From assembly GCF_024125425.1 (NCBI RefSeq), contig NZ_JAMXWN010000002.1, positions 124,001-188,000 on the forward strand: 64,000 bases of DNA. The letters run 5' to 3'. Shown piece by piece: positions 53,971 to 63,561 of this stretch. Within the stretch, counting starts at the first letter, position 1; the number at the start of each line of letters is the position of its first letter. Below the pieces are notes generated by a model that saw only the letters and a program-made list of their open reading frames with translations, was not told where the DNA came from and ran no database searches. The translations under genes were made by a program, and so were the position numbers. The DNA comes from Sporolactobacillus kofuensis. Its GTDB lineage: Bacteria; Bacillota; Bacilli; Bacillales; Sporolactobacillaceae.

Positions 53971-55131
53971 TTGAAGACGATTCATGTTGTAGTTGGTGCG
54001 GGTTTGTGGGAACAGGATGGTCTGCGCTATCGCCGTCACAGGCTTGCAGATTTTTTAGCTGCGCAACCAAATACGCGTCAAGTATTCTGGATCTGCCCTA
54101 CGCCGCATCATGGTTCCATCACCAATGTCGGTGAGCAAGGATTGATCGAGCAGTGGCCGGTGCAAGATCTGCTTCCTCAGAAAACGTTTCGCTTCGGTCG
54201 CTACCTCTCATTTTTTCATAAATGGCAATTGACTCAATTGATTCACCATCTTGAGAGATTCGCAAGTCATGAGCCTATTTATTTATGGTATACATTTCCG
54301 GGCTTTCCAATACTCAGCCAACTTTTCCCATGGGATAAAGTCATTTATGATTGCAGTGATCTTTGGACAGCATCAATTGGTGGCAAGCGTTCGTTAATTA
54401 CGCGTATGAGAAGTCATATCATTAGCCAAGCGGAACAGCGCATCATTGATCGTGCCGATTTGATTTTCTGCACATCGGACTATTTGCATCAACAAACAGT
54501 GCTCAAACTACCTGAACTAAAAAGAAATCGAGTGATCACCTTAGAGAATGGTGTTGATTATACACTTTTTTCAAAACCCGTGGATCGGTCGAAGCGATAT
54601 TCTGTGGCGGAAGGAAAATTGGTTCTTGGCTATATTGGCGGCATTAAACCGAAACTTCATTTTGCACTACTGAATAAATTAGCTGAAAAGAAACCGGATT
54701 GGCAACTTTTACTTGTGGGTCCGGATGGAACAAACGGTGATCCGGAATTTGCACGCTTGATCAAGCGGGACAATGTGGATTGGATTGCCGGTGTACCACC
54801 TTATGAAGTCCCACATTATATGCAGCTCATCGCTATTGGACTTATGCCGTACAAATCATCTCCATACAATCATGCAGTTTTTCCATTAAAATTATTTGAA
54901 TTCCTTGCAGCAGGAAAGCCAGCTATCGGTATTCATTTGCCGTCTACGAAAAAATATGAACAACAAGGCTGCTATCAATGCGTTGAACGTGAAGACGTAA
55001 ACCAGTTGATTAAGGTCTGTGAGCAAATGGCAGTTACTATAGAGCAACCGGAAGCAGTGGAAAAAAGGAAAGTATTGGCACAATCAAAGGATTGGTCGAA
55101 AATTTTCGATACGATGCTTAGCTATTTATGA
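53971..55131 (+). CDS. tuaH: Glycosyltransferase (TuaH-like)
   Basis: 386 residues starting at TTG 53971, with AAAGGAAGG 8 bases before it. An ATG at 53920 inside tuaG has no site. The N-terminus (M)KTIHVVVGAGLWEQDGLRYRRHRLADFLA resembles TuaH. The C-terminal half has IGGIKPKLHFALLNKL and LKLFEFLAAGKPAIG, as in GT4-like enzymes. The adjacent Rossmann segment YDCSDLWTASIGGKR is typical for this branch. It is the last gene of the operon, followed by a hairpin at 55174-55208. Confidence 0.85.
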   Translation: MKTIHVVVGAGLWEQDGLRYRRHRLADFLAAQPNTRQVFWICPTPHHGSITNVGEQGLIEQWPVQDLLPQKTFRFGRYLSFFHKWQLTQLIHHLERFASHEPIYLWYTFPGFPILSQLFPWDKVIYDCSDLWTASIGGKRSLITRMRSHIISQAEQRIIDRADLIFCTSDYLHQQTVLKLPELKRNRVITLENGVDYTLFSKPVDRSKRYSVAEGKLVLGYIGGIKPKLHFALLNKLAEKKPDWQLLLVGPDGTNGDPEFARLIKRDNVDWIAGVPPYEVPHYMQLIAIGLMPYKSSPYNHAVFPLKLFEFLAAGKPAIGIHLPSTKKYEQQGCYQCVEREDVNQLIKVCEQMAVTIEQPEAVEKRKVLAQSKDWSKIFDTMLSYL

Positions 55132-55173
55132 ACGGTACGAAAGAACATGATTATAATGATTTATTGAAGCCTT

Positions 55174-55208
55174 ACGGCGTTTCTCGGCACGATCGTGAGA
55201 CGCTTTTT
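55174..55208 (+). terminator. Probable terminator of the surface-glycan operon
   Basis: Imperfect hairpin: ACGGCGT...ACGC arms around the palindromic CACGATCGTG, followed by TTTTTG. It lies about 40 bases after the tuaH stop. Confidence 0.5.
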
Positions 55209-55317
55209 GTTTGTGCAAAACGTTTCTCTAGGGATCACGTACTTAAAGATTTAACGGGTTGAGCATGACTTGGTTAACAACGAATGATTTTTTTATTGGA
55301 GGTTTAAGTAAGGCGTG

Positions 55318-55360
55318 GTGCGAGACGCCTGTGGCAAGTGGGCACTGAAAGCACCAAACA
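55318..55360. repeat. Head fragment of the dispersed intergenic repeat
   Basis: GTGCGAGACGCCTGTGGC matches the beginning of the repeat at 6878. The remainder diverges. Confidence 0.35.
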
Positions 55361-55508
55361 AGAAAAACGTAACGTATACCACCTTTTTTTAATGATTCGC
55401 AATCAACACAAACGTGTTTTATAATATAAGAAAGAATAAAATTTTCAGCAGAGCGCATCGATCGTTTTCTTACCTAAAAAATGCATGATCAATTATTCAA
55501 TGAATAGC

Positions 55509-55536
55509 TTGACTTAGTTGGACTTCTCTATATAAT
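55509..55536 (+). promoter_or_regulatory. Sigma-A-type promoter of the polyamine operon
   Basis: TTGACT (55509-55514), 16 bases, TATAAT (55531-55536). It lies about 150 bases upstream of the first polyamine gene, so the transcript would have a leader of about 150 bases. Confidence 0.6.
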
Positions 55537-55693
55537 TGAAATTGAATTTTTATCGGAGAATAACGAAGGGATACGTGTACGCTTTGTATCTATTCGTTTG
55601 TAAGCATCACGCAATTCTTTGTATTTCCTCTTTTGAACGTGACACATCTGTCATTGGATCCTGAAATAACTGGGAAAGGCTGTGAGGATAGGG

Positions 55694-56488
55694 TTGGAAA
55701 ATAAGCTGAAATTGTACGGCTTTAACAACCTCACGAAGTCACTAAGCTTTAACATTTATGATGTTTGTTATGCGAAAAGTGAACGTGAGCAACGAGATTA
55801 CATTACTTACATTGACGAGCAGTACAATTCAGAGCGACTGACCCATATTCTTTGCCGAGTGACGGAAATGATCGGTGCCCATGTCCTCAACATAAGTAAG
55901 CAGGACTATGATCCTCAGGGTGCCAGTGTTACCATTCTCATCGCTGAGCAAGAATTTCCAAAAGATAAAATTGATCGTTCGTGCAATCTTGGACAGTACT
56001 CAGATACGGTCGTCGGACATCTGGATAAAAGTCATGTAACCGTGCATACGTATCCGGAATTTCACCCAGGGAACGCTATCGCAACATTTCGCGTTGATAT
56101 CGATGTCGCAACCTGTGGAGAAATTTCACCTTTGAATACATTAAATTATTTGATTGGGAGTTTTGATTCGGATATCATCACAGCCGATTATCGTGTGCGT
56201 GGATTTACACGTGACGTTAATGGGAAGAAACTATTTATGGATCATCCGATGACCTCAATACAGAATTATATTGATAATGAGACCCTTGACAAATATGATG
56301 CCGTGGACATTAATGTGTACCAGGCAAATCTCTTTCATACCAAACTGCTGATTAAAGAGCCGGAACTGCAAAATTATCTGTTTAATCGTGATGTTCTTGA
56401 GATTCCTCCAAAGGAGCGCTTGAAGATCAGCAACAACCTCCGTAAAGAAATGATTGAGATTTTCAGCGGAGCCAATATATTTGATTAG
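55694..56488 (+). CDS. speD: S-adenosylmethionine decarboxylase, class 1A
   Basis: 264 residues, exactly the E. coli SpeD length, from TTG 55694 with GAGGATAGGG before it (an in-frame GTG lies at 55682). Its N-terminus KLKLYGFNNLTKSLSFNIYD is almost that of E. coli. The pro-enzyme cleaves itself at LDKSHVTVHTYPE to make the pyruvoyl group from Ser113. It makes decarboxylated AdoMet, the aminopropyl donor for SpeE. This long class 1A form is proteobacterial in style; many Bacilli carry the short class 1B form, so transfer is possible. It is the first gene of a five-gene operon. Confidence 0.95.
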   Translation: MENKLKLYGFNNLTKSLSFNIYDVCYAKSEREQRDYITYIDEQYNSERLTHILCRVTEMIGAHVLNISKQDYDPQGASVTILIAEQEFPKDKIDRSCNLGQYSDTVVGHLDKSHVTVHTYPEFHPGNAIATFRVDIDVATCGEISPLNTLNYLIGSFDSDIITADYRVRGFTRDVNGKKLFMDHPMTSIQNYIDNETLDKYDAVDINVYQANLFHTKLLIKEPELQNYLFNRDVLEIPPKERLKISNNLRKEMIEIFSGANIFD

Positions 56489-56501
56489 TGGAGCAGAGAA
56501 A

Positions 56502-57950
56502 ATGACACATTTATCACAAGAACGTGCGCCGGTACTGGAGGCGCTGAATCGTTATAAATCTATGCGTGTTGTGCCTTTTGATGTGCCGGGGCATAAACGA
56601 GGGAAAGGCAATCGGGAACTGACCGAATTTCTTGGAGAAAAATGCCTGACGGTGGACGTTAATTCAATGAAGCCGCTCGATAACCTCTGTCATCCGGTTT
56701 CTGTGATTAAGGAAGCAGAAGAACTGGCTGCCGATGCGTTCGGTGCGAAGCACGCGTTCTTCATGGTTAATGGAACGACCTCGGCTGTTCAAAGCATGGT
56801 GATGAGCGCCTGCAAACGAGGCGAGAAGATTATCATGCCACGCAATGTGCACCGCAGTGCAATCAATGCACTGATTCTAAGTGGAGCGATCCCGGTCTAT
56901 GTAAATCCTGGGGTGAATAAGGAATTAGGCATTTCGCTGGGCATGTCGGTAGCGGATGTCGAACAAGCGATTCTTGAGAATCCGGATGCCAAAGCGGTCT
57001 TGGTCAATAACCCGACTTACTATGGCATATGTTCTAATCTGAAGGCGATCACGGATCTCGCTCATAAGCACAACATGCTGGTGCTTGTTGATGAAGCCCA
57101 TGGCACACATTTTTATTTTGGCGAGGGCCTTCCGCCTTCTGCAATGTCTGTTGGTGCAGATATGGCGGCGGTTAGCATGCATAAGTCAGGTGGATCGCTA
57201 ACCCAAAGCTCATTGCTTCTCGTGAACGGATTAAGCGAAGGCTATGTCCGCCAGATCATTAACTTGACGCAGACAACAAGCGGCTCCTATCTGCTTATTT
57301 CGTCACTTGATATTTCGCGAAGAAATCTTGCCCTTAGAGGTCGAGATATTTTTGATAAAGTTAGCAAGATGGCTGACTATGCACGTGACGAGATCAATCA
57401 AATTGGTGGATATTATGCCTATTCTCGTGAGTTGATTAATGGTGATTCGATATTTGATTTCGATCGCACCAAACTTTCCGTGTTGACCTTAGATGTCGGT
57501 CTTGCCGGTATTGAAGTGTATGATATTCTACGTGATGACTATGACATTCAAATTGAGTTTGGCGATATCGGTAACATCCTTGCCTATCTTTCAATCGGTG
57601 ACCGAATTCTTGATCTTGAGCGGCTTGTCTCTGCATTATCGGAAATCAAACGTCGTTATGCGAAGGACCGAACGGGCATGTTGAGTCAGGAGTATATCCG
57701 ACCTCAAGTTGTGCTTGGCCCTCAGGAGGCCTTTTACGCGGAATGTGAATCCACTCCGCTTGAACAAAGCCTTGGTCGCATTTGCGGTGAGTTCGTCATG
57801 TGCTATCCACCGGGCATTCCGATTCTCGCACCTGGTGAAAAAGTGACCGCTGAAGTATTGGAATATATTCAATACGCGAAGGAAAAAGGTTGTTTTATGA
57901 CAGGTACTCAGGACAGTCAAGTGAACCGAATACAGACCGTGAAGGAGTGA
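56502..57950 (+). CDS. Fold-I Orn/Lys/Arg decarboxylase (SpeA/Cad-like)
   Basis: 482 residues from ATG 56502, 13 bases after speD. It is a short fold-I PLP decarboxylase. Motifs are VPFDVPGHKRGKG, MVNGTTSAVQSMV, NPTYYGICSNL, VDEAHGTHFYF, and the PLP lysine in SMHKSGGSLTQ (about Lys228). The class includes arginine, lysine and ornithine decarboxylases, and this one lies near the Bacillus SpeA type. The product would be agmatine, cadaverine or putrescine. No agmatinase gene lies in this operon, which would be needed if the product were agmatine and putrescine the acceptor. Confidence 0.88.
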   Translation: MTHLSQERAPVLEALNRYKSMRVVPFDVPGHKRGKGNRELTEFLGEKCLTVDVNSMKPLDNLCHPVSVIKEAEELAADAFGAKHAFFMVNGTTSAVQSMVMSACKRGEKIIMPRNVHRSAINALILSGAIPVYVNPGVNKELGISLGMSVADVEQAILENPDAKAVLVNNPTYYGICSNLKAITDLAHKHNMLVLVDEAHGTHFYFGEGLPPSAMSVGADMAAVSMHKSGGSLTQSSLLLVNGLSEGYVRQIINLTQTTSGSYLLISSLDISRRNLALRGRDIFDKVSKMADYARDEINQIGGYYAYSRELINGDSIFDFDRTKLSVLTLDVGLAGIEVYDILRDDYDIQIEFGDIGNILAYLSIGDRILDLERLVSALSEIKRRYAKDRTGMLSQEYIRPQVVLGPQEAFYAECESTPLEQSLGRICGEFVMCYPPGIPILAPGEKVTAEVLEYIQYAKEKGCFMTGTQDSQVNRIQTVKE

Positions 57951-57955
57951 TCGGA

Positions 57956-58807
57956 TTGGAATTATGGTTTACAGAGCAACATACAGACAATGTCACGTTC
58001 TCTATTAAAGTGGATCGCCAAGTCTACAGCGGTCAGAGCGAATTTCAACGCATCGATCTGTTTGACTCGCTTGAGTTCGGACGCTTTCTTACGCTTGATG
58101 GCTACATGATGCTGACGGAGAAAGATGAATTCATCTATCATGAGATGATTGTTCATGTCCCGATGAACGTTCTTCCTGACGTGAAGAACGTATTGGTGAT
58201 CGGCGGCGGAGATGGCGGAGCAGTTCGTGAGCTCGTTCGTTATCCAAGCATCGAAAAAATCGATTTGGTTGAGATTGACGCAAAGGTCATTGAGGTTTGC
58301 AAAAAGTATCTGCCGCAAACGGCATGCAAGCTGGATGATCCGAGGGTGTCGATTCATTATGCCGATGGGTTGAAGTTTGTCCGTTCAAAGAAAAATGAAT
58401 ACGATTTGATCATTGTCGATTCAACGGATCCATTTGGCCCGGGCGAAGGTCTGTTTACGAAGGAATTCTATGGAAACTGCTTTAAGGCACTGACAGAAAA
58501 AGGTGCGATGGTGAATCAGCATGAAAGTCCATTCTACCCTAAGGACGCCGTTGCGATGCAGCGTGCCCATAAGCGGATCATTGATTCCTTTCCAATCAGC
58601 AGGGTCTACCAGGCGCATATCCCGACCTATCCTTCCGGTCATTGGTTGTTTGGTTTCGCCTCAAAGAACTATCACCCGATAGAGAATTTTGACGCAGTTG
58701 CCTGGAAAAAACGTGAACTGAAAACGAACTATTATAATGACAAAATCCATGTGGGTGCATTTGCATTACCGAATTATGTGAAGGAATTACTTGAAGAAGT
58801 GGAATAA
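57956..58807 (+). CDS. speE: Polyamine aminopropyltransferase (spermidine synthase family)
   Basis: 283 residues starting at TTG 57956, 8 bases after AAGGAG, just past the previous stop. The start ELWFTEQ matches the usual SpeE beginning. The AdoMet-type fold has VLVIGGGDGGAVRELVRYPS, LVEIDAKVIEV and the catalytic Asp region IIVDSTDPFGPG, with IPTYPSGHW near the C-terminus. It transfers an aminopropyl group from decarboxylated AdoMet to a diamine or polyamine. Acceptor preference (putrescine, cadaverine, agmatine, spermidine) is not readable here. Confidence 0.93.
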   Translation: MELWFTEQHTDNVTFSIKVDRQVYSGQSEFQRIDLFDSLEFGRFLTLDGYMMLTEKDEFIYHEMIVHVPMNVLPDVKNVLVIGGGDGGAVRELVRYPSIEKIDLVEIDAKVIEVCKKYLPQTACKLDDPRVSIHYADGLKFVRSKKNEYDLIIVDSTDPFGPGEGLFTKEFYGNCFKALTEKGAMVNQHESPFYPKDAVAMQRAHKRIIDSFPISRVYQAHIPTYPSGHWLFGFASKNYHPIENFDAVAWKKRELKTNYYNDKIHVGAFALPNYVKELLEEVE

Positions 58808-58872
58808 GGGCTTGATGCTAAAGTTAGTTAGAAGACGGATGGACAGGCTAAAAATTAAGGAGGCGTTTTAAC

Positions 58873-60072
58873 TTGGGTAAAGCATTGATTATTGGCGCTG
58901 GCGGAGTCGCAAGCGTAGTGGTACATAAATGTTGTCAGAATCCGGACGTATTTGAGGAAATTTGTATTGCCAGCCGTACGGTTTCAAAATGTGATGCATT
59001 GAAGGCAAAGCTTGACGGAGGGAAAACAAAGATCACAACGGCACAAGTGAATGCCGACAACGTACCGGAACTGATTGCACTGATTGAAAAAGTGAAACCG
59101 GACATCGTGATTAATGTTGCGCTTCCTTATCAAGATTTAACGATCATGGATGCGTGTCTCGCAACGAAAGTCGACTATGTCGACACGGCAAACTATGAAC
59201 CTGAAGACACAGCAAAATTTGAATACAAATGGCAATGGGCGTACCGTGAACGTTTTAAAGAAGCAGGAATCACTGCTTTGCTCGGTAGCGGGTTCGACCC
59301 AGGGGTTACAAGTGTGTTCTCTGCTTATGCCCAAAAGCATTATTTTGATGAAATCCACTCGATTGATATTCTTGATGCGAATGCGGGGGACCACGGCTAT
59401 CCATTCGCAACGAACTTTAATCCGGAAATTAATATTCGTGAAGTGACCGCGAACGGAAGTTATTTTGACAACGGAAAGTTTATTGAAACGGAGCCGATGT
59501 CAATCAAGCGTGTCTACGATTTCCCACAAATCGGACCAAAAGACATTTACCTGCTTCATCATGAAGAAATGGAATCGCTCGCGCTGAACATTAAGGGCAT
59601 TAAGAAAATCCGTTTCTGGATGACGTTCTCACAGAATTATCTCACGCACCTTAAAGTTCTTGAGAATGTCGGCATGACGTCCATTGAACCGATTGAGTTC
59701 GAAGGCAAGCAAATTGTGCCGTTGCAATTTCTTAAGGCTGTGCTGCCGGATCCATCGTCACTTGGCCCGCGGACAAAGGGTAAAACCAATATCGGCTGCA
59801 TTTTCCAAGGGGTTAAAGACGGCAAGCCACTGACCTATTATGTCTATAATGTCTGCGATCACCAGGAATGCTATAAAGAAGTCGGCTCACAAGCGATTTC
59901 GTATACGACCGGTGTTCCGGCAATGATAGGCGCATCAATGGTTATGACCGGAAAGTGGAAACGTCCGGGCGTCTTTAATATCGAAGAATTTGATCCGGAT
60001 CCATTCATGGATGCATTAAATAAATTCGGTTTGCCATGGCATGAAGATTTTGCCCCGGCACTGATTGACTAA
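58873..60072 (+). CDS. Carboxynorspermidine/carboxyspermidine dehydrogenase
   Basis: 399 residues starting at TTG with AAGGAGGCG upstream. Saccharopine dehydrogenase-like fold: NAD(P) loop LIIGAGGVASVVVHKC, then VDTANYEPED, LLGSGFDPGVTSVF, and the C-terminal YVYNVCDHQECYKEVGSQA typical of carboxyspermidine dehydrogenase. It joins aspartate semialdehyde to a diamine by reductive amination (putrescine gives carboxyspermidine, diaminopropane gives carboxynorspermidine). It lies in the same operon as speD and speE. Confidence 0.92.
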   Translation: MGKALIIGAGGVASVVVHKCCQNPDVFEEICIASRTVSKCDALKAKLDGGKTKITTAQVNADNVPELIALIEKVKPDIVINVALPYQDLTIMDACLATKVDYVDTANYEPEDTAKFEYKWQWAYRERFKEAGITALLGSGFDPGVTSVFSAYAQKHYFDEIHSIDILDANAGDHGYPFATNFNPEINIREVTANGSYFDNGKFIETEPMSIKRVYDFPQIGPKDIYLLHHEEMESLALNIKGIKKIRFWMTFSQNYLTHLKVLENVGMTSIEPIEFEGKQIVPLQFLKAVLPDPSSLGPRTKGKTNIGCIFQGVKDGKPLTYYVYNVCDHQECYKEVGSQAISYTTGVPAMIGASMVMTGKWKRPGVFNIEEFDPDPFMDALNKFGLPWHEDFAPALID

Positions 60073-60083
60073 GGAGTTCGTGA

Positions 60084-61220
60084 ATGAATATTGATTTTAC
60101 AAAAGCACCGTCGCCGAGCTATCTCATTGATGAACGGCTGCTTGTGAAAAATTTGGAGATTCTAAAACAACTTCAAGAACGTACCGGATGCAAGATTCTT
60201 CTTGCACAAAAAGCGTTCTCGATGTTCGCGTATTATCCGCTAATTGGGGAGTATTTAAGCGGAGTCGCTTCCAGTTCATTGTATGAAGCGCGTCTTGGGC
60301 GTGAAGAAATGAACAAAGAAGTGCATATCTACTCTCCTGCCTATGATGATAAAGACTTTGCAGAGATCCTTGAGGTCAGCGACCATGTTGTCTTCAATTC
60401 ATTCGGTCAGTGGGCAAAGTTCAAAGAGCAGGTGAAAAATGCACCGAGACATATTGAATGCGGGATGCGCGTGAATCCGGAATATTCGGAAGTTGAAACA
60501 GGGCTTTACGACCCGTGTGCACCTTATTCACGTATGGGTGTGACCGAAGCCAATTTCGATCCTGAGGCATTGGACGGTTTGGACGGTTTGCATTTTCATA
60601 CGTTATGTGAGCAAAATTCCGATGCACTCGAACATACATTGGCTGTCGTCGAGCGTAAGTTTGGCAACTATCTTAAAGGGATGAAATGGATCAACTTTGG
60701 TGGCGGTCATCACATCACACGTCAGGACTATGATCTTGACCGCCTTGCGCAATGTATTACAGCGATCAAAGAGAAGTACGACCTCGAGGTTTACCTCGAG
60801 CCGGGTGAAGCTGTGGCACTGAATACCGGCTATCTTGTCACAACTGTTCTTGATGTCTTTGAGAATGGGATGCCAATTGCCATTCTCGACACATCCGCAA
60901 CCTGTCATATGCCTGATGTACTTGAGATGCCGTATCGACCGGAGATCATTAATGCTGGGAAGCCTGGAGAACAGGCACATACTTATAGGTTAGGCGGACC
61001 AACATGCCTTTCCGGTGATGTGATCGGGGATTATTCCTTTGATCAGCCGCTACAGGTCGGTGATCGATTGGTGTTCTGTGATATGGCCATCTATTCAATG
61101 GTTAAAAATAACACGTTCAATGGCATCGCACTGCCTGCAATTGCTTCTTATAATGAGGAAGACGGCATTCGCGTGATCAAAGAATTTAGCTATGATGATT
61201 TCAGATCACGGTTGTCATAA
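60084..61220 (+). CDS. nspC: Carboxynorspermidine/carboxyspermidine decarboxylase
   Basis: 378 residues, an alanine-racemase-fold PLP decarboxylase. The PLP lysine is in ILLAQKAFSMF (Lys43), a histidine in GLHFHTLCEQN, the phosphate-binding glycines in WINFGGGHHITR, and the dimer-partner Cys in GGPTCLSGDVIGDYSF. It removes the carboxyl group from carboxyspermidine or carboxynorspermidine. It starts 11 bases after the dehydrogenase gene (AAGGAG upstream) and ends the operon at a strong terminator. Confidence 0.94.
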   Translation: MNIDFTKAPSPSYLIDERLLVKNLEILKQLQERTGCKILLAQKAFSMFAYYPLIGEYLSGVASSSLYEARLGREEMNKEVHIYSPAYDDKDFAEILEVSDHVVFNSFGQWAKFKEQVKNAPRHIECGMRVNPEYSEVETGLYDPCAPYSRMGVTEANFDPEALDGLDGLHFHTLCEQNSDALEHTLAVVERKFGNYLKGMKWINFGGGHHITRQDYDLDRLAQCITAIKEKYDLEVYLEPGEAVALNTGYLVTTVLDVFENGMPIAILDTSATCHMPDVLEMPYRPEIINAGKPGEQAHTYRLGGPTCLSGDVIGDYSFDQPLQVGDRLVFCDMAIYSMVKNNTFNGIALPAIASYNEEDGIRVIKEFSYDDFRSRLS

Positions 61221-61246
61221 TGGTCATCCAACAAGAGTATAACTAT

Positions 61247-61288
61247 AAATCCCTGAGTTGACGATGAAAATCAACTCAGGGATTTTTT
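61247..61288. terminator. Terminator of the polyamine operon
   Basis: A 15-bp perfect stem AAATCCCTGAGTTGA / TCAACTCAGGGATTT with a 9-base loop, followed by TTTCTT. It lies between convergent transcripts. Confidence 0.92.
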
Positions 61289-61320
61289 CTTGATTACTAA
61301 TTATTTTGTTACGGCTTTAA

Positions 61321-63561
61321 TTAATTATTACGCCGCATCTGTTCATTACTTGATCGTTGGACTGTTTTATCGGATGCTTGTTGCACTTGCTGCTGTTTTC
61401 GACGGTTCACATCGATTCCGGCACGATCCATACTGAGTGAAACGTAACCATACCAGATCAGCATCAGAACGGGAAGAACGAACAGCATCTGATAAGCAAA
61501 ACTGCTAAGATAAGGACCATTTTTTGTTTCATAAACCATGAATTGGAGATCTTTCTTTTGGTCCTTCAAACCCTTTTGTATGAGACGACCTTCAGAATAA
61601 AGATCACGTTGCTCATAGCCTTTTCCGCTTATATTGAATGTAATGGCGGAATGCGCGTCGCCCCTTACTTTAGAGATCGTAATGATTTCTTCATCGCCTT
61701 TTACCAAAGGCTTATGATTCATCTTTAAAGTTAACATCTTTTTCGACTTAGAAATAAGAGCATCTTTTGAATAAAAGATCTTTCCTGTATGCAGGTTGCC
61801 AACGGTAATGTGATAGGTCCCTGCGCCTTTTACTGTGCGAATACCGATGTCCACGCGATTATATGCTCCGGTGGCGCGAAAAGTCTGAGCGATCGCATGA
61901 CGGTTATCAACGAGGACACCTTTCTTGCCAACTTTATAGTGCTGATCAACAATGTAACTTCGTTGAGGCGACTTGGCCTGTGTATAGGCGGTGAATCCTG
62001 CTTGAGCGCAAAGGAAGACTGCGGCAAGTAGGCTGCCTGTGAGTACAAGCCGGAGTCCTTTGCCCACACGCTGAACACGTGTCTTTTCCGCATTTTCCAT
62101 ACTTAATAAGTGGACAAGCTCTCTAAATCCGAATATGCTGCCGAGCAGAATGAATGGTGTATAGAGCATGCTATAGCGCGGCTCTGCCTCCCACACGAAC
62201 ACATAGAAGATAAAATTCCCGAACAGGCAAATTTGGATCAAAAGATTGAGATCTGCCTTTCTCGTTCTGAAGTAGCGCAGTACGGAAAGGATCAAGAGTA
62301 AAATGTTTACGATATAAAACACTTGGATCATAAAAAGAGTCAATTGATTTTTATGATTAAAGAGATACTGGTACGCTTTGGTAGGATGATTGGACAAATG
62401 GGTGTACCAATAATAGCCATGCGCACCGGTTCCCCACGTTCTCGCTGTCTTTATCCCCCAAAGGCGAACCAATCCTTGCCATCCATAGTGACTTACTTGT
62501 TGCTCGATCCGAAGTGCTGCTGCGTGTTTTTTCGCTGCCTGGTCCGGCTGTTGTCGTGTCAACTCATAATCATGACGATTGTAGCCACCGTCTTGAGAGA
62601 CGCCGAGCATGATCCAGTTAAGTGTGGGCATGGACAACGAAGGATCTTGGGTATAGCCAAAATGACGTTCGACACCCTGGGAAGCTAAGCTAATCGAACT
62701 GATCAAAATACCAATAATGGCGAGGTTGATCAATGTCTTTTTCCAGTTCAGAACAAGGAACATATAGATGACGAGCGCCGGCAGAAATAAAATCAGATTT
62801 GGCCGGATTAGATCGCCAATGCCTAGAGCAATCCCAAGCAAAAAAATGTATCGAATTTTCATCGAACGACTGTACAGATCCCAAAGATAGAGCAGCAGAA
62901 CCGGAAAGGCAATGGCAGCAGTATCTGTGTAAAAGTACATGGTGTAAAAGAATAACGGCAGACATGTGAGCGCGATCAATAGAAATAGACATGCTGTCCG
63001 TGCATCAAAAAACGTGCGTATAAGCTTCCATGATAGGAAAATGCCGACGAACAAGATCAGCGCACAGAAACTCCGATCAATGATCATATAATTCGTTACA
63101 TGCATGAGATCAAAAATACGATAAAGAACGTAACGCAACAGGGTGATCGGGATGTTATTCGGATACACCTTAAAATAAATACTGTCGGATGCATGTCCAT
63201 GCGCGAGAAGATATAAGGCTTCTGCGTAGGTATGTCCGCCATCAATGGCCGGGGGAATGATCGAATTAAAGACGGTGATCAATGTTCCCTCAATCAGTAG
63301 CATGATTGCAAAGAGGCCGGTTGAAAGTTTATTGATGACATGGTCGGAGAATCTTCCGAGCCATCGATAACAGGAAATCAGAAACAAGAGCACAATCATT
63401 GCAAACAGTGCAAGAGCAAGTGCTGTTGTCATAAGACCCTGGGTATGATGAAAGATTAATGGATACAGGAAACTGATCACGAGTACAGCGAGAAAGCATG
63501 CTACAAATGCAATGCTAAACAGAGTAATCAGGCTTTTTTTCATTGTTAAAATAGAAGTCAC
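61321..63561 (-). CDS. Membrane glycosyltransferase-like protein (GT39/GT-C type)
   Basis: 746 residues. It has about 11-13 membrane helices, an extracellular beta-rich part at about 560-700, a helix near 710 and a polar tail rich in Gln/Arg. The first loop contains PPAIDGGHTYAEALYLL, and a later loop NWIMLGVSQDGGYNRHDYEL. These fit GT-C enzymes that use polyprenyl-phosphate sugars as donors. It decorates a surface polymer outside the membrane. The neighbouring GtrB-like gene would supply the lipid-linked sugar. The start is uncertain: GTG 63561 (weak site) or ATG 63543. Confidence 0.8.
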   Translation of the reverse strand: MTSILTMKKSLITLFSIAFVACFLAVLVISFLYPLIFHHTQGLMTTALALALFAMIVLLFLISCYRWLGRFSDHVINKLSTGLFAIMLLIEGTLITVFNSIIPPAIDGGHTYAEALYLLAHGHASDSIYFKVYPNNIPITLLRYVLYRIFDLMHVTNYMIIDRSFCALILFVGIFLSWKLIRTFFDARTACLFLLIALTCLPLFFYTMYFYTDTAAIAFPVLLLYLWDLYSRSMKIRYIFLLGIALGIGDLIRPNLILFLPALVIYMFLVLNWKKTLINLAIIGILISSISLASQGVERHFGYTQDPSLSMPTLNWIMLGVSQDGGYNRHDYELTRQQPDQAAKKHAAALRIEQQVSHYGWQGLVRLWGIKTARTWGTGAHGYYWYTHLSNHPTKAYQYLFNHKNQLTLFMIQVFYIVNILLLILSVLRYFRTRKADLNLLIQICLFGNFIFYVFVWEAEPRYSMLYTPFILLGSIFGFRELVHLLSMENAEKTRVQRVGKGLRLVLTGSLLAAVFLCAQAGFTAYTQAKSPQRSYIVDQHYKVGKKGVLVDNRHAIAQTFRATGAYNRVDIGIRTVKGAGTYHITVGNLHTGKIFYSKDALISKSKKMLTLKMNHKPLVKGDEEIITISKVRGDAHSAITFNISGKGYEQRDLYSEGRLIQKGLKDQKKDLQFMVYETKNGPYLSSFAYQMLFVLPVLMLIWYGYVSLSMDRAGIDVNRRKQQQVQQASDKTVQRSSNEQMRRNN

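Follow-up and report, generated by a model that had tools for sequence, protein, structure and literature searches.

The joint use of the two aminopropyl routes to polyamines, one dependent on S-adenosylmethionine (AdoMet) and the other on aspartate semialdehyde (ASA), is already known: a hybrid pathway that draws on both ASA and decarboxylated AdoMet (dcAdoMet) to make spermine was published in 2025 (Li et al., JBC, PMC11999265), and its authors state that they had noted two-route genomes earlier. According to that report, spermine synthases were found in Clostridium leptum, Deferribacter desulfuricans, Leptotrichia buccalis and Haliangium ochraceum, and sequential use of both routes is proposed for C. 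leptum and D. desulfuricans, which also have an arginine decarboxylase; the published scheme passes through N1-aminopropylagmatine, from which a ureohydrolase then gives spermidine. A further parallel is the locus of Streptococcus pneumoniae, which comprises casdh (lys9), nspC, aguA, aguB and a spermidine synthase gene (PMC5872165, PMC10413350), and whose decarboxylase is an arginine decarboxylase (PMC7531197). The subject of the present analysis is a five-gene operon, in the order speD, speA-type decarboxylase gene, speE, casdh and nspC, found in the list of open reading frames (ORFs) on the + strand at positions 55694-61220 of a 64,000-nucleotide stretch of Sporolactobacillus kofuensis DNA (contig NZ_JAMXWN010000002.1; hereafter the window, from a genome of 2.96 Mb). 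As in the genomes of PMC11999265, homologs of AdoMet decarboxylase, aminopropyltransferase, carboxyspermidine dehydrogenase (CASDH) and carboxyspermidine decarboxylase (CASDC) are present together; the Sporolactobacillus operon differs in having no agmatinase gene, and the AguA-AguB pair, which lies inside the pneumococcal locus, is encoded elsewhere in the genome. The reading favoured here, with moderate confidence, is that the operon is an agmatinase-less form of the hybrid polyamine operon known from other Bacillota, in which AguA and AguB would supply putrescine for conversion to spermidine and maybe to spermine.

Comparison with the six-gene operon

The comparison covers 154 gene neighbourhoods, of which 74 surround nspC matches of other genera (23 genomes among 150 of the order and 51 among 398 of the phylum) and 80 are the best of at least 588 casdh loci confirmed in a pattern scan. 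In 46 of these stretches casdh and nspC stand alone, and the commonest order with more than two genes is speD-speA-speE-speB-casdh-nspC (42/154, mostly in Bacillota), which has the identical five genes in the identical order, with protein identities that range, across these 42 loci, between a minimum of 47% for nspC and a maximum of 88% for casdh, and differs from the window in carrying the agmatinase gene speB between speE and casdh. The window operon is this common six-gene operon without the agmatinase gene. Its own five-gene order occurs in 7 of the 154 stretches, one of them from the genus member S. putidus; Clostridium beijerinckii HUN142 (L150) and Sporobacter termitidis (L161) likewise have speD-speA-speE-casdh-nspC, no speB, and AguA elsewhere, and differ in branching apart from the Sporolactobacillus sequences on the CASDH tree. 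The initial annotation regarded the two routes as normally alternatives; their combination is published (PMC11999265), and speD, speE, casdh and nspC occur together in 53 of the 154 neighbourhoods.

Within Sporolactobacillus, the five-gene run with its order unchanged is found in all 15 genomes (nspC included, 15/15), and because the same genes recur in the same order throughout, the operon is not a chance arrangement. Fourteen of the runs appear intact; in the single-contig genome G010 (L029 5977-6824), speE is split into two pieces that overlap but are read in separate frames, owing either to a frameshift or to an error in sequencing, and the rest of the operon is complete.

The distance between speE and casdh is 65 bases in the window and 28 to 309 bases in 14 of the 15 genus genomes, against a median of 914 bases in the 60 speB-carrying loci considered below; speB sits between the two genes in 59 of these 60, the exception being L142, where it is co-directional with speE and 3' of it, outside the speE-casdh interval. 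The SpeB of L036 scores 268 bits with TIGR01230, above the agmatinase cut-off of 174. Searches by tblastn with three SpeB proteins detected no remnant of speB, either in the speE-casdh gaps of 14 genus genomes out of 15 (chance-level matches only, best E 0.21) or in the whole genus stretches examined (none at E 1e-3). The gap of G007 (L026 9512-9820) contains a 21-base unit, GTGGCTGGTAAAACGGCGAAA, in nine exact copies.

In agreement with the initial annotation, neither an agmatinase nor an agmatine deiminase gene is found inside the operon. The sole PF00491 match of the genome, an arginase-like protein (C34:38096; L002 1390-2235), reaches 38 bits (Pfam cut-off 22) and was rejected as an agmatinase at 31 bits with TIGR01230 against the cut-off of 174; it has homologs in all 15 genus genomes, with 48-64% identity in the other 14, and may have some ureohydrolase role. 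In the window genome it shares contig C34 with aguA-aguB. Among the 15 genus genomes, G011 alone has a PF00491 match as strong as 161 bits (L111), a 395-residue open frame outside the operon stretch with a long N-terminal extension and an arginase domain, presumably resembling the arginases that act on peptides.

Distribution of agmatinase and agmatine deiminase

On contig C34 of the window genome, an agmatine deiminase homolog, AguA (PF04371, 409 bits), directly adjoins AguB, which exceeds the cut-off of the N-carbamoylputrescine amidase model TIGR03381 (473.9 against 410 bits), and the adjacent pair is present in all 15 genus genomes. This AguA retains the C-terminal GGNxHCxTQQ stretch and scores 354.9 bits with the agmatine deiminase model TIGR03380, under the cut-off of 382, as do those of two further genus members (356 and 321 bits), while five operon-borne AguAs from other bacteria score 399 to 569 bits; two segments found in the operon-borne AguAs and in the plant enzyme 1vkp are missing from the genus protein. 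Desulfosporosinus sp. SbF1 (L171 6299-8362) has an AguA of the same divergent type (TIGR03380 349 bits) and an AguB, 65 and 78% identical to the Sporolactobacillus proteins, about 5 kb downstream of casdh and behind ilvB- and ilvN-like ORFs (named by eye); nspC was not found in this stretch.

Co-directional speE and casdh are present in 84 of the 154 stretches, the other 70 being excluded from this count: 60 carry speB, 9 carry aguA-aguB, none carries both, and 15, among them the genus member S. putidus (L140), carry neither. Genome-wide, AguA is found in one of the 60 genomes of the speB type (a weak match of 83 bits), in 9/9 of the agu type and in 13/15 of those with neither, so that 22 of the 24 genomes lacking speB at the locus have it, against 1 of the 60 in which speB is there, many of the sampled genomes being metagenome bins in which absences are weaker, and the AguA evidence of L212 consisting of two fragments on two contigs. 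The speB and AguA solutions are nearly mutually exclusive. The two genomes with neither arrangement and no AguA (L058 and L064) have PF00491 proteins elsewhere, at 290 and 267 bits; among the other 12 such genomes searched, PF00491 is found in L078 only (225 bits), L140 reaches 24 bits only, and a search of the nine agu-type genomes found none. PF00491 comprises both arginases and agmatinases, and the matches of G113 and G259 are assigned to the family only; counted in this way, every one of the 84 genomes has a guanidine-removing gene (speB, AguA or PF00491 family). The same species may be represented under two names, although identical CASDHs are found only in L140 and L025, and the Fisher p of 7e-17 for the exclusivity takes no account of relatedness and carries no weight in the argument.

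On the CASDH tree, the genus proteins group in a single starred clade (97) next to L036, L142 and L154, which carry speB, the joining fork being 91 and unstarred and the root not inferred; because of this position, a single loss of speB in the ancestor of the genus would be the simplest reading.

Family assignment of the five proteins

The operon SpeD exceeds the cut-off of TIGR03331 (428 against 256 bits), and its gene is the only match to PF02675 in the whole genome. Its translation contains LDKSHVTVHTYPE, which we take to be the Lys-Ser processing site known from E. coli SpeD. The decarboxylase, of the short 'ancestral' AAT-fold type, matches PF01276 (OKR_DC family, 238 bits) and the C-terminal domain PF03711. 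Its NCBIfam ranking is headed by lysine decarboxylases (94 and 80 bits), followed by arginine (80) and ornithine (78) decarboxylases, and because every match is far under its cut-off these models do not discriminate the substrate; since all 84 genomes have guanidine-removing genes, the enzyme is most likely an arginine decarboxylase. Contig C9 encodes a second copy of the family, next to an ORF that by eye resembles a thymidylate kinase gene, which is the arrangement described for yaaO (PMC8503589).

SpeE exceeds the cut-offs of PRK00811 (395 against 260 bits) and TIGR00417 (330 against 250 bits) and contains the motifs GGGDGG and VEID. Its best matches among solved structures are 1inl and 1iy9, both spermidine synthases, which we take to be those of T. 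maritima and B. subtilis, respectively, and 1inl also has the GGGDGG motif and the Glu. In its Asp, Gly and Glu the window SpeE agrees with the spermine-synthase pattern of PMC11107197, the equation of the VEID Glu with motif 3 of that paper being a mapping of the present analysis; according to the same paper, these motifs do not set spermidine synthases apart. The GGGDGG motif and the VEID Glu are compatible with both a spermine and a spermidine synthase, and do not by themselves tell the product. Thermospermine, one of the products entertained in the initial annotation, is disfavoured, since motif 2 of SpeE has Asp and not Glu (PMC11107197, which reports two exceptions).

The dehydrogenase matches PF03435 and PF16653, and its best NCBIfam model is NF043000, 'carboxynorspermidine synthase', at 433 bits, under the cut-off of 800; against PDB entries 4rl6, 4ina, 8deb and 8h4z, E values are about 1e-161 or lower, and 8deb is named carboxyspermidine dehydrogenase. 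In an alignment with the Bacteroides fragilis enzyme BfCASDH (PMC10413350), H230-E231-E232 of the window protein fall on its His-Glu-Glu triad, E190 on its Glu188 and Thr146 on its Ser144. NspC exceeds the cut-off of TIGR01047 (519.5 against 409 bits) and matches PDB 9eaf at E 4e-162. Family matches and active-site residues together bear out the earlier assignment of both aminopropyl routes to one operon.

Elsewhere on the CASDH tree, a starred clade of 17 rows (L085, L092, L096, L099-L101, L106, L107, L209, L211, L212 and L214-L219) has proteins of about 419 residues and includes genomes with speB as well as genomes with aguA-aguB; PDB 4rl6 and the three CASDHs of this clade that were aligned (L085, L099 and L106) have 19 extra residues inserted behind NYEPED. 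Loci L099-L101 are similar to the pneumococcal locus, speD was not found in them, and the AguA of L099 is canonical (TIGR03380 481 bits).

Proposed pathway and alternative explanations

Since speB and AguA nearly exclude each other and a guanidine-removing gene is present in all 84 genomes, agmatine is very probably the amine from which the pathway starts. The initial annotation had left the identity of the diamine open; the distribution of speB, AguA and PF00491 narrows it, and the same distribution speaks against the cadaverine analogue also envisaged there and against an ornithine operon. The AguA-AguB pair encoded elsewhere probably replaces the agmatinase, agmatine being most simply converted to putrescine by these two enzymes. 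Judged from protein families and relatives, SpeA would form agmatine from arginine, AguA and AguB would convert it into putrescine, and CASDH and NspC would add an aminopropyl group from ASA to putrescine to give spermidine; SpeD and SpeE would carry out an AdoMet-dependent aminopropylation that could also give spermidine, part of which SpeE might extend to spermine. Purified C. leptum CASDH takes putrescine (PMC10413350). The sequential use of both routes to build a tetraamine, suggested earlier for this operon, is possible by analogy with the precedent of PMC11999265, although the Sporomusa ovata enzyme of the same report gave no detectable spermine.

Several points weigh against this pathway. 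The 84 loci do not count as independent observations: a quick CASDH tree (98 rows) implies nine or more switches of state, only three of them forced by starred branches. No report on Sporolactobacillus polyamines was found, by title or abstract start, in the literature searched. With the CASDH/CASDC pair of C. leptum, the yield of N1-aminopropylagmatine was about 150 times higher than with that of A. tumefaciens (PMC11999265), so relatives are able to use agmatine without requiring putrescine. The genus has a divergent AguA, below the TIGR03380 cut-off in the three genomes tested, and the SpeE motif does not discriminate between spermine and spermidine synthases.

The alternative that survives best is redundancy, in which both routes would yield spermidine only, perhaps under differing supply of AdoMet and ASA, and no tetraamine would be formed; it is regarded as possible, if somewhat doubtful. 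SpeE of S. ovata, whose genome has both routes, made spermidine with spermine undetectable (PMC11999265), which favours this explanation, as do the structure matches of the window SpeE, both to spermidine synthases, one of which (1inl) shares its GGGDGG and Glu, the T. maritima enzyme being listed as making no spermine. Conversely, the aminopropyltransferases of the four other two-route species in PMC11999265 were spermine synthases, and the Asp, Gly and Glu of SpeE correspond to the spermine-synthase pattern of PMC11107197, though spermidine synthases share it.

It is unlikely, in turn, that the aminopropyl group is added to agmatine first, CASDH-NspC, with or without SpeE, making N1-aminopropylagmatine from which AguA and AguB would then strip the guanidino group to yield spermidine, with no free putrescine. 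N1-aminopropylagmatine is made in quantity by the CASDH pairs of C. leptum, D. desulfuricans and H. thermophila, and could also be formed by 17 of the 18 bacterial spermidine synthases tested (PMC11999265, PMC11107197); moreover, the 11 CASDHs of speB-carrying loci in alignment A1 share 69-88% identity with that of the window, and the low TIGR03380 score and missing segments of the genus AguA lean the same way. These indications are set against an AguB that passes the N-carbamoylputrescine amidase cut-off (474 against 410 bits) and against the literature searched, in which no deiminase acting on aminopropylagmatine was found and the papers searched do not contain 'carbamoylspermidine'. Nor is any CASDH or SpeE residue claimed to track the agmatinase or deiminase state, in an independent-pair scan without power that had, among the rows listed, only three (CASDH) and four (SpeE) pairs on starred branches, L148 and L078 being dropped. 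Decidedly improbable is the more specific proposal that the divergent AguA, with AguB, acts on N1-aminopropylagmatine instead of or besides agmatine, both routes using agmatine and spermidine arising through N-carbamoyl-spermidine; no report of such a deiminase/amidase route was found in the literature searched, most subscription journals lying outside its coverage, and the divergence of AguA may be taken as a hint at a wider substrate range, no more.

A decarboxylase for lysine or ornithine, with aminopropylcadaverine or ornithine-derived spermidine as the product, is very improbable: the Leptospirillum enzyme of the ancestral form beside speD and speE was a lysine decarboxylase (PMC8503589) and lysine decarboxylases head the NCBIfam ranking, all matches being far under cut-off, but the guanidine-removing genes of all 84 genomes would be superfluous for such an operon, and in the pneumococcus the enzyme of a related locus decarboxylates arginine (PMC7531197).

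Operon layout and boundaries

The description of five genes in one compact run with short gaps and a single terminator is confirmed (Table 1): the intergenic gaps are 13, 5, 65 and 11 bases in order, with the speD start taken as TTG 55694. This start, with GAGGATAGGG just 5' of it, is more likely than the in-frame GTG 55682.

Table 1. Coordinates of the polyamine operon and its flanking signals in the window
Feature	Position	Strand	Basis
Sigma-70-like promoter, TTGACT-16-TATAAT	55509..55536	+	Consensus scan, 11/12 matches
speD, S-adenosylmethionine decarboxylase, E. coli type	55694..56488	+	TIGR03331, PF02675
speA-type 'ancestral' AAT-fold basic amino acid decarboxylase	56502..57950	+	PF01276, PF03711
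speE, aminopropyltransferase	57956..58807	+	PRK00811, TIGR00417, GGGDGG and VEID motifs
casdh, carboxyspermidine dehydrogenase family	58873..60072	+	PF03435, PF16653, PDB relatives, active-site residues
nspC, carboxy(nor)spermidine decarboxylase family	60084..61220	+	TIGR01047, PDB 9eaf
Intrinsic terminator, 15-pair stem then T's	61247..61285	+	Folding, -21.9 kcal/mol

The promoter match is weak by itself, the scanned region containing 19 promoter-like sites against 13.4 in shuffled sequences; both boxes are seen in 11 of 14 aligned upstream regions of the genus, and one of the three regions without both (L020) ends at a contig edge. The energy of the terminator hairpin is reached by none of 200 shuffles (z -5.9), and its 9-base loop explains why it was not listed by the consensus scan, which allowed loops of 3-8 bases. 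An Rfam search of 55100-61400 found no riboswitch or other known RNA at the gathering threshold. The operon is flanked on the 5' side by the gene of a teichuronic acid type glycosyltransferase, TuaH, and on the 3' side, on the opposite strand, by that of a PMT-type membrane protein, neither of which looks like a member of the pathway.

Significance

That a single genome can combine both routes and use them for spermine is already known (PMC11999265), and the pneumococcal locus with aguA-aguB inside offers a published parallel (PMC5872165, PMC10413350); for the agmatinase-less form with AguA-AguB elsewhere in the genome, and for the near-exclusive pattern over the 84 genomes, no prior report was found within the literature coverage given above, from which most subscription journals are excluded. 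If the Sporolactobacillus operon is read as the agmatinase-less form of the hybrid operon, the genomes in which AguA-AguB have apparently replaced the agmatinase constitute a natural test, in which either CASDH and SpeE use putrescine or the substrate range of AguA has widened, and the near-exclusive distribution of speB and AguA offers an easy clue, for many Bacillota of gut and soil, to the amine from which synthesis starts.

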